In this document: in pieces, positions 1,304 through 6,345 of the stretch
How positions within the stretch are numbered: the first letter of the stretch is position 1
Layout of the letters: each line of letters opens with the position of its first letter
IMG/VR virus record: IMGVR_UViG_3300004369_000627
Coordinates: 1-30,104 of that record
Source of the DNA: a virus
Length of the DNA: 30,104 nt
Strand: one strand, 5' to 3'
Program-made: the position numbers and the translations under genes
Notes under the pieces: model-generated
Told to the model about the DNA's origin: nothing
Seen by the model: only the letters and a program-made list of their open reading frames with translations
Databases searched by the model: none

Positions 1304-2148
1304 GATTTAGAAAGTTCAGTGAAAGCTTCTTTGGTAATTCTATAATGCTTTTTAGTACCTGGCATCCGCTCTATAAAGCCCCATTCTATTAGTTCAGCTA
1401 AAGCGCATGTAACCATGGAACGCCATCTATGTTTTAGCCGATTTTCTCCCTGAGACATTTTTTCTAAATCGCCATCCCAGAAATCGTTAAAACAATTTTC
1501 TATGTAACCATTTAAGGCTAAGCCTGAAAATGGATTAAGCAAAAATTTCTCATTAGTTTTAACAATTTGAATAACTATATCTGCCCATTGTTGCTTGCTT
1601 CTAAATGGTACGGCTACTTTGACTTTAATTGGTTGAATTTCAGGTTCTTTTTGTTTAATTTCAGAAACTTGAGTTTTAAAAGCTAACGCATTGCTTAGCT
1701 CTTCAACAATTTTTTTCATTTTGTAATTTTCTAATATTAGTGATTCAATATCGTTTGCGGCTTGTTTTAACATATGTGGCAAATGATGAATTGGGATTGG
1801 TTTGTGCTCATCACCTAATAGATCTAGCAAAGAGTTTGATTCAAACAAAAGCAAACTGCTATCTTGTTTAGCTAGTGGCATTGCCCCTCCTTTATATTCC
1901 CCTATGTATTCAGGATGAGAGGATAAGCTTACTTTTTCAGCTTTAACAATTGAATCTGGCTGCAAATTTTGAAACCAGTCTTCATTATCTGGAGCAAAAA
2001 TAATTCCTTTGAACTCTTGCCCTTCGTGTAAATAGACACATTTAGCTTGATGGTGCCCTGTTTTTGTAAGTGTTTGGCACAAGTTTAATATGCGGGCATT
2101 ACAGCTAAATGGCAGTTCTGGCATGTCGCTGGAAATAGTACTGTTCAT
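1300..2148 (-). CDS. Hypothetical protein with possible C-terminal winged helix
   Basis: A 282-residue protein of no family I recognise. The N-terminal ~110 residues look globular and beta-rich. A helical segment follows at about 120-160 (LKQAANDIESLILENYKMKK), then a lysine/glutamate-rich linker. The C-terminal ~110 residues resemble a helical DNA-binding domain that ends in a winged-helix-like stretch: SMVTCALAELIEWGFIERMPG followed by the strand KKHYRIT. That pattern suggests a regulator or a replication accessory. The gene lies 5 bases after the preceding stop and overlaps the next start by 4 bases, in the unit that ends with the sigma factor. No Shine-Dalgarno sequence is visible before the ATG at 2148. 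Confidence 0.8.
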   Translation of the reverse strand: MNSTISSDMPELPFSCNARILNLCQTLTKTGHHQAKCVYLHEGQEFKGIIFAPDNEDWFQNLQPDSIVKAEKVSLSSHPEYIGEYKGGAMPLAKQDSSLLLFESNSLLDLLGDEHKPIPIHHLPHMLKQAANDIESLILENYKMKKIVEELSNALAFKTQVSEIKQKEPEIQPIKVKVAVPFRSKQQWADIVIQIVKTNEKFLLNPFSGLALNGYIENCFNDFWDGDLEKMSQGENRLKHRWRSMVTCALAELIEWGFIERMPGTKKHYRITKEAFTELSKS

Positions 2149-2153
2149 GGCGG

Positions 2154-2354
2154 TTAAGCTGATTGGTAACGTAAACCTTGATGCAAAGAGCTTGCAGGAC
2201 CGTAGGTCTGTTTTAATTCTGGGAATGCCAAAAGTAATTTAGCTTTGTTTGATGGATCAGCTTTTAAGCCAGCTTTACCAATCAAGCTGTAAAAGCTGCC
2301 GCCATATTCAGCAGCAGTTGAAAATGTGTAGAAAATTTCAGATTCATTCATCAT
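2154..2354 (-). CDS. Small hypothetical protein
   Basis: A 66-residue soluble protein rich in aromatic and small residues (EYGGSFYSLIGKAG). I do not recognise it. Its ATG overlaps the stop of the tiny membrane protein gene upstream (ATGA, 2351-2354), so it is probably translated by coupling. It begins with two consecutive Met codons; the second could be the real start. It sits between the membrane protein and the 282-residue gene in the sigma-factor unit. Confidence 0.65.
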   Translation of the reverse strand: MMNESEIFYTFSTAAEYGGSFYSLIGKAGLKADPSNKAKLLLAFPELKQTYGPASSLHQGLRYQSA

Positions 2355-2467
2355 GATTGGTATGCAACGGGAATAGGATTTGCGTAAGGCGTTGGTTGTG
2401 TACCAAATTCAGCAACAACTAGATAAGTTGTAACTGCAACAATAGCGGCGCAAAGGAATTTAAACAT
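2351..2467 (-). CDS. Tiny single-pass membrane or secreted protein
   Basis: A 38-residue product from the ATG at 2467. Residues 2-19 are a hydrophobic segment (FKFLCAAIVAVTTYLVV) that should act as a membrane anchor or signal, followed by a short Pro/Tyr-rich tail (TPYANPIPVAYQS). The frame stays open upstream to 2722, but that extension only translates the promoter and leader, so the internal ATG is preferred. The start lies 20 bases after a conserved pseudoknot element (2488-2520). A membrane-anchored gene stands at the equivalent place in the sister module (2728-2910). Function unknown; the overlap with the next gene suggests it is translated. Confidence 0.6.
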   Translation of the reverse strand: MFKFLCAAIVAVTTYLVVAEFGTQPTPYANPIPVAYQS

Positions 2468-2487
2468 AAATAAAAGCAATGGAGTAG

Positions 2488-2520
2488 TGCCAGATTTAGA
2501 GCGGCTCTGGCGGGCCGCGT
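2488..2520 (-). promoter_or_regulatory. Putative H-type RNA pseudoknot, copy 1
   Basis: Read on the minus strand, GCGGC pairs with GCCGC (stem 1, 5 bp) and GCCAGA pairs with TCTGGC (stem 2, 6 bp). The stems are interleaved: loop 1 is CC, there is no loop 2, and loop 3 is TCTAAA. This is the geometry of a compact H-type pseudoknot. A second copy at 2932-2964 matches at 29 of 33 positions, and all four differences fit the fold. It starts 11 bases after the stop of the 40-residue gene and ends 20 bases before the next ATG. No T-tract follows, so it is not an ordinary terminator. Confidence 0.65.
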
Positions 2521-2531
2521 AATTGGCGCTG

Positions 2532-2654
2532 TTAAGCGTTCCTCTCTTCTGCTGACAATGAAGGATGTCTTTCTGCTGGCTCTTGATCGTCGTCAAAATC
2601 AGCTTCGTAATTGTCTGGGTCGATGCCAAGTGCTTCTGAAAAATAGTCGTGCAT
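2532..2654 (-). CDS. 40-residue acidic protein, first gene of the sigma-factor unit
   Basis: A complete small reading frame that is easily missed because of its size. It starts at the ATG at 2654, just after a promoter and leader hairpin, and ends with TAA at 2532-2534. The product begins MHDYFSEALGIDPDNYEADF and continues with an acidic run (DDDQEPAE) to ...LSAEERNA. It is strongly acidic with no hydrophobic segment. The position (promoter, hairpin, CA-rich leader, ATG) matches that of the 80-residue gene in the neighbouring module. Small acidic phage early proteins often bind host factors, but no function can be assigned. The longer overlapping frame through this region is not favoured, since it would have to start inside the promoter. 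Confidence 0.65.
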   Translation of the reverse strand: MHDYFSEALGIDPDNYEADFDDDQEPAERHPSLSAEERNA

Positions 2655-2670
2655 GGTTTTTGTGTGTGGT

Positions 2671-2684
2671 GGAGGTCTCCCTCC
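2671..2684 (-). promoter_or_regulatory. 5' leader hairpin after promoter A
   Basis: On the minus strand GGAGG, loop GAGA, CCTCC forms a short GC-rich hairpin beginning 8 bases after the -10 box, so at or near the 5' end of the transcript. A single-stranded CA-rich stretch of about 16 bases then leads to the ATG. The GGAGG is too far from the ATG (over 20 bases) to be its ribosome binding site. The other two units with this promoter type have hairpins of different sequence at the same place. Confidence 0.55.
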
Positions 2685-2692
2685 TTGCTAAT

Positions 2693-2741
2693 ACTATATA
2701 CCCTTGTGCACAGCTTGTACAATCCCTTTACAATGCTGTAA
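2693..2741 (-). promoter_or_regulatory. Early promoter A with conserved spacer and upstream palindrome
   Basis: The -10 is TATAGT (2693-2698) and the -35 TTGTAC (2717-2722), with an 18-base spacer. The spacer holds AAGCTGTGCACAAGGGTA, nearly identical to the spacers of the promoters at 3255 and 6316 and similar to that at 7285. Five bases upstream of the -35 is the inverted repeat TTACA-N4-TGTAA (2728-2741), which also contains the stop codon of the gene upstream. Conservation beyond the -35 and -10 boxes suggests an operator. It should drive the genes from 2654 down to the sigma factor. Confidence 0.7.
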
Positions 2742-2910
2742 CAATGCGTTGTACGGTAGATCTGCTGATCCCCATGTGCGTCGCGATTTGACGTTGCGTC
2801 CAGCCCCTATGGCGTAGGCGCATAGCCCGTTGGTTTCTAGTTTCTGTTGCCCATAAAATTACCAGCAGCGGCAATAACAGCACTGCTACAAATAGCGCGA
2901 GTGTAGTCAT
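2728..2910 (-). CDS. Membrane-anchored helix-turn-helix protein (60 aa)
   Basis: Residues 2-21 form a strongly hydrophobic membrane segment (TLALFVAVLLLPLLVILW). A short basic region follows, then residues 35-58 form a resolvase/Hin-type helix-turn-helix (RGWTQRQIATHMGISRSTVQRI). The whole protein is therefore a DNA-binding helix-turn-helix on a membrane anchor. N-in or N-out topology is unclear, but the basic segment after the helix favours a cytoplasmic C terminus. The ATG at 2910 lies 21 bases after pseudoknot copy 2, and the stop falls inside the operator-like palindrome of promoter A. It could regulate the repeated promoters. Resolvase-type helix-turn-helix motifs are well known; fusion to a membrane segment at this size is unusual. 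Confidence 0.75.
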   Translation of the reverse strand: MTTLALFVAVLLLPLLVILWATETRNQRAMRLRHRGWTQRQIATHMGISRSTVQRIVTAL

Positions 2911-2931
2911 AATTAGAAGAAAAATGTTTGT

Positions 2932-2964
2932 TGCTAGATTTTGGGCGGCTCTAGCGGGCCGCGT
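2932..2964 (-). promoter_or_regulatory. Putative H-type RNA pseudoknot, copy 2
   Basis: Same fold as the element at 2488-2520: stem 1 GCGGC/GCCGC, loop 1 CC, stem 2 GCTAGA/TCTAGC, loop 3 CCAAAA. Relative to copy 1, the C-G pair at the third position of stem 2 is T-A here, a compensatory change. The other two differences fall in loop 3. It begins 5 bases after the stop of the 80-residue gene and ends 21 bases before the ATG of the membrane-anchored helix-turn-helix gene. Confidence 0.65.
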
Positions 2965-2969
2965 TGGCT

Positions 2970-3212
2970 TTACGCCAGTTCAACCCAGTAAGCCGCAGGG
3001 AATCCAGCTGGCGTTTCATCGTCTTCAAAGCTTGTAACGAGCCCCTTGGAAATTAAAGAGCCGAGTACTCCAGCAGTTACATGATCGTTGTTAAAGGGGC
3101 TAATTTCATGTAGCCAGCCGCTCCCAGCTTCATCCATGCCGGCCTGAATTGCTTCATACAGCGCCTGCTCCTTGTCGGTGAGGCTGAGGTTGGAGGTAAT
3201 GGTGGTGTTCAT
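2970..3212 (-). CDS. 80-residue hypothetical protein, possible winged helix
   Basis: The start at 3212 is preferred over the longer open frame to 3284 because the extension only translates the promoter and hairpin. The product is MNTTITSNLSLTDKEQALYE... ending ...YWVELA. The pattern is a helix (TDKEQALYEAIQAGMDE), a middle segment with HEISPFNNDHVTAGVLGSL, then ISKGLVTSFEDD and a terminal strand AAYWVEL. It resembles a small MarR-like winged helix, in which the turn 'KGLV' precedes the wing. Possibly a DNA-binding regulator; not certain. It is the first gene after promoter B and is followed directly by pseudoknot copy 2. Confidence 0.7.
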   Translation of the reverse strand: MNTTITSNLSLTDKEQALYEAIQAGMDEAGSGWLHEISPFNNDHVTAGVLGSLISKGLVTSFEDDETPAGFPAAYWVELA

Positions 3213-3227
3213 GATTTGTGTGGCGGG

Positions 3228-3245
3228 GGAGGTCCGTTTGCCTCC
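3228..3245 (-). promoter_or_regulatory. 5' leader hairpin after promoter B
   Basis: On the minus strand GGAGG, an 8-base loop and CCTCC form a hairpin starting 9 bases after the -10 box. The stem is the same as in the promoter A leader but the loop differs (CAAACGGA instead of GAGA). A C- and A-rich unstructured leader of 15 bases separates it from the ATG at 3212. Confidence 0.55.
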
Positions 3246-3254
3246 GATGTACTT

Positions 3255-3303
3255 ATTATACACCCTTATGCACAGGGTGTACACCCCCTTTACAAAGCTG
3301 TAA
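3255..3303 (-). promoter_or_regulatory. Early promoter B with conserved spacer and upstream palindrome
   Basis: The -10 is TATAAT (3255-3260), a perfect consensus, and the -35 GTGTAC (3279-3284), with an 18-base spacer ACCCTGTGCATAAGGGTG. The inverted repeat TTACA-N4-TGTAA lies at 3290-3303, exactly as far from the -35 as in promoter A. It drives the 80-residue gene and the membrane-anchored helix-turn-helix gene. The terminator of the upstream unit ends right beside it. Confidence 0.72.
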
Positions 3304-3304
3304 C

Positions 3305-3326
3305 AAAAAGCCGGGTTCCCCCGGCT
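3305..3326 (-). terminator. Rho-independent terminator after ssb
   Basis: On the minus strand AGCCGGG, loop GGAA, CCCGGCT forms a perfect 7-bp GC-rich stem followed by five T. It lies 24 bases after the stop of the single-strand binding protein gene, closing the recombination unit, and immediately before promoter B. Confidence 0.85.
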
Positions 3327-3350
3327 GCGTTTACAAATTAGTAGCGACGC

Positions 3351-3677
3351 TCAGAATGGTGCCTCCATAGTTTTTGCCTTAGGCGGCAAACTAAAATCAT
3401 TTACCCGTAGCACAATCTTGGCGCCCTTTTCACCGTCCTTGCGGTCGTACTGCTCCACATAGCCATCGCCAGTCACGGTTACCTGTGATCCCTTAGAAAG
3501 ATAATCACCGATTACCTGGCAGCGTTTGCCCCATACAGAGCAATCCACTGCTGTTACGATGTCGCCGTTTTTGCTTTTGCGATTGCACAGAATAGTAAAA
3601 TTTGCAACCTCAATATCACCAACAGTTTTGATTTCAGGGTCGCGGGCAAGATTGCCTACAGCAGTTAAAGTCAACAT
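3351..3677 (-). CDS. ssb: Single-stranded DNA-binding protein (SSB)
   Basis: A 108-residue single-domain OB-fold protein that coats single-stranded DNA during phage replication and recombination. The family signature is clear: the first strand with VGNLARDPEIK, the middle FTILCNRKS and VDCSVWGKRCQVIGDYLSKGSQVTVTG, and the closing VEQYDRKDGEKGAKIVLRVNDF. It is shorter than bacterial SSB (about 150-180) because the glycine/proline-rich linker is nearly absent. It still ends in PF, like the protein-binding tip of bacterial SSB. It is last in the unit with the annealing protein and RusA and is followed by a terminator. Function is well supported by the motifs. Confidence 0.92.
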   Translation of the reverse strand: MLTLTAVGNLARDPEIKTVGDIEVANFTILCNRKSKNGDIVTAVDCSVWGKRCQVIGDYLSKGSQVTVTGDGYVEQYDRKDGEKGAKIVLRVNDFSLPPKAKTMEAPF

Positions 3678-3716
3678 AGTTAAGTAGCGTTTGGATAAAA
3701 GCGTTGCCGACTAGCG

Positions 3717-4409
3717 TTAGCTAGACAGAAACGCATTGACAAATTCAACATGTTCTTGAGTTTTGATTTCTTTAGATAACGCAGTTTTCGAATCGAGTTT
3801 AAATTTAGTTCTAAATGCTTTTGTTAAACTTTCAATTTTTTCTGGCGTGTTGGTGTGCACTTCTAATAGCAACCCCATTACGACCTGATATTCGTCCTCA
3901 CGAATTGGCATATCGCCAGGTTCAATCCGATTGTTTGCTTCAGGCTTAGCAGGTGCAATTGTTTTTGTTTTATGTTCTACCGGTGCTGGAGCTATAACGA
4001 CACCAGCTTCAGCAACTTCTTCTTTAGCCCATAGCTCATAGCCCAGCGACAACGTATAAGCCGCGCAAGCGCATAATGCTCGACGGTGTGCATCGGTTAA
4101 TGCTCTGGCGCTAATTTTATCAAACTGCACTGCATTGTTCCTGTTATCCATGATAGGAAACGGAAAATCAGCCGTTGCTTCATCTCCTGGGCCAGTAAAA
4201 TAACCAATTAAATAACCAGTACCATCTGGCGCTTTCCAGATATGTTCTCCATCTCTCGTAGTTTTTAAATGAAATTCCCAGCCAGGAGCGTGAGTATGTA
4301 AATGATTTGCAATTCGCGCCCAAGCAACATAAGAAGCAGCGTAGGAGCCACTGCCTTTGCTGTAAACGTCATCTTTTTTAATAATGCCAGCAAGATTCGG
4401 ATAAGTCAT
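3717..4409 (-). CDS. Single-strand annealing protein, DUF1071/Sak-type
   Basis: A 230-residue protein resembling the DUF1071 (SSAP_Sak) family of phage recombinases, which anneal complementary single strands as Red-beta and Erf do. Seen in sequence: an N-terminal YVAWARIANHLHTHAPGWEF, the central FPIMDNRNNAVQFDKISARA, and the helix LTDAHRRALCACAAYTLSLG followed by YELWAKEE. This order fits the family pattern (aromatic-rich start, 'MDN..NA', 'R.L...A..LGLY'). A Pro/Ala/Lys-rich linker (about 140-165) leads to a small helical C-terminal domain. It overlaps the RusA gene by 4 bases and sits next to SSB, the usual partners. The family call rests on recalled motifs, not a search. Confidence 0.75.
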   Translation of the reverse strand: MTYPNLAGIIKKDDVYSKGSGSYAASYVAWARIANHLHTHAPGWEFHLKTTRDGEHIWKAPDGTGYLIGYFTGPGDEATADFPFPIMDNRNNAVQFDKISARALTDAHRRALCACAAYTLSLGYELWAKEEVAEAGVVIAPAPVEHKTKTIAPAKPEANNRIEPGDMPIREDEYQVVMGLLLEVHTNTPEKIESLTKAFRTKFKLDSKTALSKEIKTQEHVEFVNAFLSS

Positions 4410-4846
4410 GAGATGATTTTGTAAATAGGTGTGCAGGTAATAATTGCGCCAGGCCGCTCTGAATTAGAGCAGTAACGCTTGTTAGCATTGATTTCAACAA
4501 CTTGTGAATCGTCGTCGAATAAAACAGTGGTCAGGGCATCTAGGATGCCACGAACAAGTTTGTCAATATCACCAATGCTTTTGCTTGTAGCTAAAGCTGG
4601 TGATTTAGGTGTTAATTGCCCTTTAGTGTTGTAATGCGATTTTGGCCGCAGGAAACAAAAAGCAATGTTAACTGACATGGGAGCTGTCGTTTCCCATGAT
4701 GCTGGACGGTGCTGCTGTGCGCCAAAACGCACATCATGCCGCCAGGTTTTAATATGCGGGCTAGCTTCAATCATGCGGCCATTGCCTAATGATTTTTTGC
4801 TGCCTTGTGGTCTGCTTACGCCTTCCACAAAAAAAGTAACCGTCAC
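4406..4846 (-). CDS. rusA: RusA-like Holliday junction resolvase
   Basis: A 146-residue endonuclease of the RusA family, which cuts four-way DNA junctions made by recombination or replication. The diagnostic acidic cluster is present: GDIDKLVRGILDAL (metal-binding aspartates) and VLFDDDSQVVEINANKRY (second acidic cluster, then basic residues). The N-terminal strand VTFFVEGVSRPQGSKK also matches the family start. Length is close to the usual 120-150. Both ends overlap neighbouring genes by 4 bases (ATGA), so it is coupled to the annealing protein downstream. It probably resolves branched concatemers before packaging. Confidence 0.9.
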   Translation of the reverse strand: MTVTFFVEGVSRPQGSKKSLGNGRMIEASPHIKTWRHDVRFGAQQHRPASWETTAPMSVNIAFCFLRPKSHYNTKGQLTPKSPALATSKSIGDIDKLVRGILDALTTVLFDDDSQVVEINANKRYCSNSERPGAIITCTPIYKIIS

Positions 4847-5145
4847 TTTTGTTTAACATGAGTCACACAAATATAGTTGGTTGTTTTAAATGTTGCAAGA
4901 CCAGAATGTTGTTCTCGTTCTTGCATAGATTTAACCATCGGAGAATAACTCCATGTTGTTCTTGTACGGCGTTCAAGGCAAACGTTTCCCATAATAGCAT
5001 TTCCTTTCTCGTTTAAATATTGATTAAGTTCACCTAACGACCATTTGAAAGAAATGTTATCAATAAGTTCTGCTTTTTCTTTTTCTAGCACTTTAATAGC
5101 AGCAGAAATTTCTGAGATCCGTTGAGTCATAATTTGTACAGTCAT
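4843..5145 (-). CDS. Hypothetical phage protein with N-terminal coiled coil
   Basis: A 100-residue protein. Residues 8-30 form a heptad-like helix (ISEISAAIKVLEKEKAELID). The C-terminal half has a distinctive stretch, TTWSYSPMVKSMQEREQHSG followed by ATFKTTNYICV. Similar 'W-Y-S-P-x-V-K' endings are familiar in small phage early proteins of unknown role. It starts 4 bases after the previous stop and its end overlaps the RusA start by 4 bases, so it is co-translated with the recombination genes. An alternative start is the internal ATG at residue 6. No function assigned. Confidence 0.75.
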   Translation of the reverse strand: MTVQIMTQRISEISAAIKVLEKEKAELIDNISFKWSLGELNQYLNEKGNAIMGNVCLERRTRTTWSYSPMVKSMQEREQHSGLATFKTTNYICVTHVKQK

Positions 5146-5885: not shown

Positions 5886-6095
5886 TTAAGAGAATTGTTT
5901 ACGTTTAAGGTAGCTGTTTGTAAGTTTTTTGTCTAGCATGTCAATTGCATGTACATAAGAGCCAAGTTCATAGTATAAGTTGTTTGGATCTTTTTGTAAA
6001 CGGTTTGATTCAATGCGAACAAGAGCATAAAGCATGTTTAGTTCGTGATTTGTAAGGCTTAGATTTTCTGGGTAAAGTGTGTAGGATGCCATCAT
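5886..6095 (-). CDS. Small hypothetical protein
   Basis: The preferred start is the ATG at 6095, one base after the stop of the upstream gene, giving 69 residues; a second ATG follows at once (6092). A longer open frame to 6170 would overlap the upstream gene extensively and is less likely. The protein is helical ([20 protein letters not shown] and [20 protein letters not shown]) and ends in a basic tail (YLKRKQFS). No family recognised. It is second in the unit from promoter C. Confidence 0.65.
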
Positions 6096-6096
6096 A

Positions 6097-6273
6097 TTAA
6101 CCGCACATTTGCTGCTTAAGAAGTTTGCCAAAAATCTTGCGTTGCTTTGATAATTCGCGTTTTGCTGCAATCATTTGATCTAGTTCGCCAGATGCAAAAA
6201 AGAACTGATAGGCAGTTTCGCTTTCAAAAATAAGCTCTTTTGTGAAGGAGATTTGGTCTTGAATGGTTTTCAT
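6097..6273 (-). CDS. Small hypothetical protein, first gene of the recombination unit
   Basis: A 58-residue protein beginning MKTIQDQISFTKELIFESET. The frame is open upstream to 6345, but that part translates promoter C and its leader hairpin, so the ATG at 6273 is taken as the start. It looks like two amphipathic helices with a basic second half (AKRELSKQRKIFGKLLKQQM). No family recognised. It lies 20 bases after the leader hairpin, in the same place as the first genes after promoters A and B. Confidence 0.65.
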   Translation of the reverse strand: MKTIQDQISFTKELIFESETAYQFFFASGELDQMIAAKRELSKQRKIFGKLLKQQMCG

Positions 6274-6315: not shown

Positions 6316-6345
6316 ACTATATACCCTTATGCACAGCTTGTACAC
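6316..6345 (-). promoter_or_regulatory. Early promoter C with conserved spacer
   Basis: The -10 is TATAGT (6316-6321) and the -35 GTGTAC (6340-6345), with an 18-base spacer. From TGTACAAGCTGTGCA to the -10 the sequence is nearly identical to promoter A. The TTACA-N4-TGTAA palindrome of promoters A and B is absent here. It should transcribe eight genes down to ssb. Confidence 0.7.

Follow-up and report, generated by a model that had tools for sequence, protein, structure and literature searches.

In phages T4 and RB69, the accessible text of PMC535899 describes a gene 32 operator in which an mRNA pseudoknot approximately 28 nt in size lies upstream of the start codon and is followed by an unstructured stretch. 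The cyanophage element reported here has a similar arrangement but differs from that operator in several respects. The T4 operator serves one gene, and its less structured part exceeds 40 nt, holds the ribosome-binding determinants together with UUAAA repeats, and is bound by gp32 (PMC535899, same portion). The cyanophage element, in contrast, precedes many genes, is followed by about 20-25 nt of C/A-rich spacer in which a Shine-Dalgarno (SD) sequence is very rare, has no known binder and lies between cistrons, after a stop codon. A second likeness is to the SAS of cluster K mycobacteriophages, a repeated conserved element just upstream of many gene starts, to which the ESAS adds an inverted repeat upstream (PMC3203893, accessible text). 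However, according to the same text SAS contains an AGGAG able to pair with 16S rRNA and ESAS is an imperfect 17-bp inverted repeat, whereas in the cyanophage element SD sequences are nearly absent (3 of 93 spacers), the pseudoknot is interleaved, and the distance to the start is about 20-25 nt. The structured RNAs wcaG, manA and PhotoRC-II, from cyanophages and marine sources, and the tandem pseudoknot STAXI, which in the accessible part of PMC2864571 are cis RNA motifs of (cyano)phages or a pseudoknot near SSB genes, are also comparable; no Rfam model matches the cyanophage element.

We found no description of the element in Rfam 15 or in the accessible text of the open-licence literature searched, which does not prove its absence. 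Compact H-type pseudoknots of the luteovirus type have a short, GC-rich stem 1 (S1), a 2-nt loop 1 (L1) that starts with C and a loop 3 (L3) containing A residues, and they act in frameshifting together with a slippery site. The cyanophage element resembles these in fold class only, as its distances are not frame-locked and the gene start downstream of it is poor in SD sequences. The fold is already known; the family and its layout at gene starts appear to be new. One study found SD sequences in 49.6% of the cyanobacterial genes that it examined (PMC3121790, accessible portion), and the choice of SD-less starts in cyanobacteria is still under study. Here the phages themselves provide an element that is repeated, portable and conserved in structure, that keeps a fixed distance from SD-poor starts and that is small enough to be studied by direct genetics. 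So compact an RNA would make SD-independent initiation, or the protection of intercistronic mRNA, testable, and would give the RNA annotation of aquatic viruses a further family. The element appears to be a hitherto undescribed component of the way in which cyanophages begin or protect protein synthesis.

Two pseudoknots in the window and their family

The window, that is, the whole stretch of 30,104 nt analysed, contains two 30-base H-type elements (class I) on the minus strand, copy 1 at 2933-2962 and copy 2 at 2489-2518. In copy 1, S1 is formed by 2958-2962 with 2945-2949 and stem 2 (S2) by 2950-2955 with 2933-2938, with CC as L1 and CCAAAA as L3; in copy 2, S1 is formed by 2514-2518 with 2501-2505 and S2 by 2506-2511 with 2489-2494, with CC as L1 and TCTAAA as L3. 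The earlier note on this DNA had proposed the same geometry from 33-mers at 2488-2520 and 2932-2964 (minus strand), and it was confirmed: S1 is GCGGC/GCCGC (5 bp), L1 is CC, S2 has 6 bp (GCTAGA/TCTAGC or GCCAGA/TCTGGC), there is no loop 2, and L3 has 6 nt. The 33-mers do differ at 4 of 33 positions (12, 21, 23 and 30); positions 12 and 30 pair with each other in S2, as C-G in one copy and T-A in the other, a compensatory change, and positions 21 and 23 fall inside L3. Copy 1 begins 7 nt and copy 2 13 nt after a stop codon. On the minus strand each copy is followed by a spacer without an SD sequence, which for copy 1 has 22 nt (2911-2932) and leads to the ATG at 2910, and for copy 2 has 21 nt (2468-2488) and leads to the ATG at 2467; counted from the end of S2, these distances agree closely with the 20-21 nt previously counted from the 33-mer.

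The 18-nt core of the element occurs twice in the window with no more than 3 mismatches, compared with a mean of 0.01 matches in shuffled sequences, none of which (0 of 100) contained two. Outside the element, blastn between the two window loci aligned a promoter-like stretch (75% over 101 nt) and otherwise only matches of 17 nt or less. By a rough estimate that adds stacks and a pseudoknot penalty of 9.6 kcal with no coaxial term, the pseudoknots reach -15.3 and -17.7 kcal/mol, versus -9.7 and -10.1 kcal/mol for the best nested folds of the two copies. A generic scan for H-type folds gave 5 matches on the plus strand of the window and 9 on the minus strand (several per site), and ten Markov-resampled windows gave 0 to 16 per strand. 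Because the resampled windows give similar counts, the fold class alone is not significant; significance comes from the shared sequence with its compensated change and from the family found elsewhere.

That family is large. Class I elements were found at no fewer than 124 distinct sites in at least 118 loci, which comprise viral contigs, the window and Synechococcus phage S-H1 (one site). The original two-copy observation is right, and the phenomenon is larger than claimed. The initial set kept only sites with six paired S2 positions (at least 130 distinct sites), from which 6 were removed for their loop or S2 letters; counts from the viral-contig scans are minimum figures from a sample that was not random. 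In a search of 40 chosen whole records, 34 contained a near-consensus copy, with one or two copies in each, confined to a single strand (this count does not extend to more divergent copies or to class II, described below), and the reversed pattern matched nothing in the same 40 whole records. Among cultured phages, S-H1 was the one clear match, and the other 33 records had E values of 0.1 or worse, as did all 4 records from a plasmid search, at 80-90% identity. Rfam 15 gave no matches to the window at the gathering score and none to 2300-3400 up to an E value of 10; covariance models capture pseudoknots only in part. In cellular genomes a degenerate pattern matched 68 stretches, nine of them with at least four of five S1 pairs and all S2 pairs. 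None of these nine best-paired sites has the CGGC/GCCG of stem 1, and no matching title names a cyanobacterium. The cellular matches were judged to be chance, although so narrow a pattern would miss divergent cellular relatives.

We also examined how far the two stems are preserved by pairing and how far by sequence. When the four middle pairs of S2 were left free in the search, 92 of the 95 listed sites still paired (Watson-Crick or G-U), 88 of them wholly by Watson-Crick pairs. This is the fairer figure for S2 covariation, because 37 of the 40 distinct elements had been pre-selected for a paired S2. Those 40 elements contain 25 both-sided changes in the structure, a number reached in none of 500 shuffles, and sliding the partner destroys the signal. 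Distinct S2 combinations paired in 7 of 9 cases compared with a shuffled mean of 3.2, a weak test since the shuffled maximum was also 7. Uncompensated breaks in either stem, which the earlier note had named as evidence against its proposal, proved rare in S2, where 3 of the 95 sites have an unpaired position. In S1 the outer pair is open in 5 of the 40 distinct elements; with S1 left free in the search the inner CGGC/GCCG was retained at 89 of 103 listed sites. Both-sided changes of S1 in the 40 elements are confined to the outer pair (G-C, G-U, A-U and C-G), and there is one inner G-U. Stem 1 is nearly fixed, conserved with little covariation.

The loops are similarly constrained; with both left free, L1 began with C at 120 of 121 listed sites and L3 read NCCCAA at 106 of 121. 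Freeing the 3' half of S2 together with L3 gave 157 listed sites; 78 of them had six paired positions and 73 had no more than four, a split expected for a real family plus chance matches. The S2 types in the pairing-selected set include GCCGGA/TCCGGC, GCCAGA/TCTGGC, GCTAGA/TCTAGC, GCTGGA/TCCAGC, GCTAAA/TTTAGC, GCCTGA/TCAGGC, GCCAAA/TTTGGC, CCGGGA/TCCCGG and CCGGCA/TGCCGG, and class I variants with a longer S2 occur among the contexts of membrane/HTH homologues considered below. A compact second class (class II) was found at no fewer than 11 sites, with an S1 of 3 bp (GGC/GCC), a 2-base L3 and an S2 of 6-7 bp; a stop codon lies 7-15 nt before it and a start codon 23-29 nt after it, the same kind of junction as in class I. 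In H-type geometry loop 3 crosses stem 1, and therefore the shrinkage of L3 together with S1 supports the topology. The predicted fold is of the H type, with two interleaved helices, stem 2 of which is supported by covariation. Both this pseudoknot and its tie to translation-initiation regions, as put forward in the earlier note, are well supported by the homologues.

Placement between stop and start codons

At 105 of 124 listed sites, the distance from the element to a start codon is 20-25 nt (100 ATG and 5 GTG or TTG), the start being defined as the first with an ORF of at least 25 aa, and GTG or TTG being accepted only where no ATG qualified. The corresponding control count, for ATG only, was 155 of 2,764 when positions were placed 36 nt beyond other ORF ends of these loci, a rough comparison that includes false ORFs and repeated loci. 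The remaining 19 sites have distances of 0 nt (3 sites), 26-33 nt (11), 50, 53 and 76 nt, or no start before the end of the contig (2). A same-strand start follows the element at 122 of 124 listed sites, the 2 misses running off the contig. On the other side, a stop codon lies 1-8 nt before S1 at 104 of 123 listed sites. The quartiles are 5, 6 and 7 nt from stop to element and 21.75, 23 and 24 nt from element to start. Neither the distance from stop to knot (40/52/31 for remainders 0/1/2 modulo 3) nor that from stop to start (49/40/27) is locked to the reading frame.

The 93 distinct spacers of 15-34 nt, the range to which the spacer statistics apply, consist of 45% C, 30% A, 16% T and 9% G. 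SD-like 4-mers are present in 3 of these 93, and GAG or GGA, a possible weak SD, in 20. By comparison, such 4-mers precede 19 of 64 S-H1 genes and 16 of 52 genes of phage S-2L, approximate figures obtained with the same motif list in the last 20 nt before nearly all genes of the two phages. Five sites (L292, L294, L307, L309 and L311) carry a second hairpin, with a preceding A-run, directly after the knot; there the ATG is 50-53 nt from the knot, and by eye the stretch after the last structure is approximately 22-25 nt and the downstream gene is a homologue of the window gene at 2154-2354. At the level of sequence, the element is part of a module of about 60 nt composed of a stop codon, a short C-rich linker (quartiles 5-7 nt), a compact pseudoknot, a C/A-rich, SD-poor spacer of about 20-25 nt and a start codon.

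In the window the module occurs within two consecutive units on the minus strand, each consisting of a promoter-like repeat, a hairpin, 15-16 nt, a small gene, its stop codon, the pseudoknot, 21-22 nt and a second small gene. The first unit has a GGAGG..CCTCC hairpin at 3228-3245, separated by 15 nt from the ATG of upstream gene 1 (2970-3212 in its ATG-start reading, the ORF being listed from a GTG at 3284; stop TAA), and copy 1 then precedes downstream gene 1 (2728-2910), which encodes 60 aa with a hydrophobic N-terminus (by eye) and an HTH domain (PF13384, E 9.4e-10). The second unit has a GGAGG..CCTCC hairpin at 2671-2684, separated by 16 nt from the ATG of upstream gene 2 (2532-2654, 40 aa, stop TAA), and copy 2 then precedes downstream gene 2 (2351-2467), which encodes a small hydrophobic protein of 38 aa from a cluster of 7. 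Within each unit, the plain hairpin before the first gene occupies the place that the pseudoknot has before the second, and the hairpin at 3228-3245 is a hairpin version of the pseudoknot layout. The promoter-like repeat, TGTGCAYAAGGGTRTATA, is present in three copies on the minus strand of the window, near 6335, 3274 and 2712, and each copy is followed by a hairpin and a C/A-rich spacer of 15-18 nt leading to an ATG.

The genes beside the element are diverse. Proteins at the listed sites fall into 37 clusters downstream (22 single) and 44 upstream (33 single), as determined by single-linkage blastp of rule-called ORFs, a procedure that may produce large clusters by chaining and may count some false ORFs as singles. 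With 56 members (51 class I and 5 class II), the largest cluster downstream includes the 60-aa membrane/HTH protein of the window (2728-2910); the core letters of that protein are present in 42 members (38 class I and 4 class II), the rest being chained. The element had been tied to small membrane-protein genes, and a small membrane/HTH protein is indeed the commonest downstream product, but the element is not specific to membrane-protein genes. The protein itself belongs to a small phage family with a hydrophobic N-terminal segment and a C-terminal HTH (PF13384) that is common in these phages.

A search for membrane/HTH homologues gave at least 257 relatives, of which 80 were kept and 59 contexts listed. 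By our own reading, class I is present in 6 of the 59 (L353, L386, L392, L393, L397 and L401) and class II in 4 (L332, L350, L354 and L381); at least L332, L354 and L381 are on contigs already counted for class II, and L386 and L392 on class I contigs. Automatic pseudoknot labels on other homologues were loose and were not counted. Several homologues (such as L373, L384 and L339) have a plain hairpin approximately 20 nt from the ATG, and two of these contexts, L373 and L384, stand beside L392, which carries class I. Others (such as L359 and L396) have a promoter-like sequence with a hairpin. In L400, which has no structure, 5 nt separate the gene start from the stop codon that ends an upstream frame of 66 open codons. 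In the 55 contexts kept for measurement, once those too short or with a doubtful start were left out, 36 had their strongest local stem-loop ending 20-34 nt ahead of the start, whereas base-shuffled contexts gave 18.3; the control is a soft one, because shuffling also removes the G-poor spacer.

Possible roles of the pseudoknot

The position of the knot and the SD-poor, unstructured spacer suggest a cap that would define an SD-independent landing site. From the sequence evidence above, we would put the chances as roughly even that the pseudoknot structurally caps an intercistronic gene start lacking an SD, keeping the ribosome landing site open, or that it acts as an mRNA stabiliser. The knot would adjoin, without entering, the space of the ribosome terminating upstream and of the 30S subunit initiating downstream; judging by ribosome footprint sizes, it seems to sit as close to the two cistrons as it can while escaping melting by the first and coverage by the second. 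It would remain folded and screen the spacer from upstream RNA, leaving a fixed single-stranded landing site for SD-independent initiation, and it may additionally shield the downstream message from nucleases. The accessible text of PMC3121790 reports that bacterial starts lacking an SD depend on mRNA that is locally unfolded, and that of PMC3879156 states that ACA motifs can enhance translation in enteric bacteria. Since a smaller pseudoknot or an unrelated hairpin can replace the knot before homologous genes, its role would be mainly structural. However, the inner CGGC/GCCG of S1, the first base of L1 and the CCAA of L3 are conserved in sequence beyond the demands of a mere barrier, a hint of a triplex or of specific recognition. 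Because a stop codon precedes almost every class I site, the role may be tied to the upstream stop, and the layout is patchy in cultured relatives and missing from the homologue in L400.

Message protection is the main rival of the cap, and both can hold at once. It is possible, if rather unlikely, that the element serves mRNA stability or processing, the knot stopping exonucleases or setting a processed 5' or 3' end and so separating the half-lives of the cistrons. A compact knot within 1-8 nt of the stop codon (104 of 123 sites) would suit this purpose, as would the ability of unrelated stable hairpins to substitute for it and the hairpins near the predicted mRNA 5' ends of the window genes that follow promoter-like repeats, yet neither the fixed start distance of 20-25 nt (105 of 124) nor an SD-poor, G-poor spacer is required for it. 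The earlier note had offered three functions; the link to initiation regions stands, a 3'-end block may apply but leaves the fixed start distance unexplained, and a ligand-binding RNA or switch found no support.

We consider it unlikely that the element is the bacterial equivalent of an internal ribosome entry site, in which the knot would dock on the 30S subunit where the mRNA exits and the C/A-rich strand of about 20-25 nt would set the start without SD pairing, as a portable cassette across cyanophages. It seems improbable that the knot is an operator through which an RNA-binding protein of the phage or host represses or activates a set of genes, in the manner of T4 gene 32. The near invariance of S1, of the first base of L1 and of most of L3 would fit a protein-binding site, the knot followed by an unstructured stretch resembles the T4/RB69 operator (PMC535899, accessible text), and the window has an SSB gene (PF00436, 3351-3677) a short way upstream on the same strand. 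However, by inspection no knot precedes either this gene or the SSB gene of S-H1, plain hairpins can substitute for the knot, and the downstream proteins form 37 clusters.

The compact H-type fold, the conserved loops and the location near gene starts also recall a ligand-sensing riboswitch, which we hold to be very improbable given the same 37 clusters of downstream proteins, the lack of an Rfam match at the gathering threshold or at E values up to 10, the non-homologous hairpins that occupy the same place, and a class II that dispenses with most of L3. Recoding pseudoknots have a similar spacing of 5-7 nt from a stop codon, and the stop-to-knot spacing here is mostly 5-7 nt. A stimulator of stop-codon readthrough or frameshifting is nonetheless hardly credible, as neither stop-to-knot nor stop-to-start distances are frame-locked and in-frame readthrough meets another stop inside the element in both window copies, the copies in which slippery sites were looked for by eye. 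A transcription terminator is disfavoured by spacers with only 16% T and by the codirectional gene that follows, and a pure DNA element by S2 letters that vary while pairing persists and by the same-strand start (122 of 124).

Hosts and cultured relatives

Two of three contigs tested match cyanophages, one of them S-H1 and S-LBS1 and the other S-CBS1 or S-CBS3; the third, L162, gave no match in this test. The sigma factor of the window is nearest to those of KBS-S-2A and S-CBS1, and its terminase to that of cyanophage S-2L (52.7%), with Vibrio phages closely behind. From the contig matches to Synechococcus phages and the nearest sigma factor and terminase, we infer cyanobacterial hosts for part of the family.

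In S-2L, a phage with diaminopurine DNA, no class I or class II element emerged from a relaxed scan, and no element counted as genuine was found at the junctions of S-CBS3, S-CBS1, KBS-S-2A and S-LBS1. By eye, a hairpin with a C/A-rich spacer is present at 4 of 25 junctions of these four phages, all in S-CBS3 and S-CBS1 and none at the KBS-S-2A or S-LBS1 junctions inspected. In the minus-strand early genes of S-2L (1706-5096), approximately 7 of 17 starts have, by eye, a GC hairpin and an SD-less, C-rich spacer of about 15-30 nt, and the average pairing profile of the S-H1 and S-2L early genes has merely a modest dip before the start. In S-H1 we noted by eye, upstream of the genes at 3126-3233 and 6002-6193, a degenerate copy with a broken S1 and a variant with a 3-base L1 and CCGGGA/TCCCGG as S2.

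Finally, another conserved intercistronic element, CCGGTTGGCCCGG with a conserved upstream sequence similar to AACACGGCCTAAGTAAGCC, occurs at 25 sites among the loci examined, for example at L343:1403 and L160:11894 and in S-CBS3 and S-CBS1. An ATG lies 21-24 nt beyond it at 19 of the 25 sites and 33 nt beyond it at one, with none within 70 nt at five, and alternative pairings may be possible within this element.
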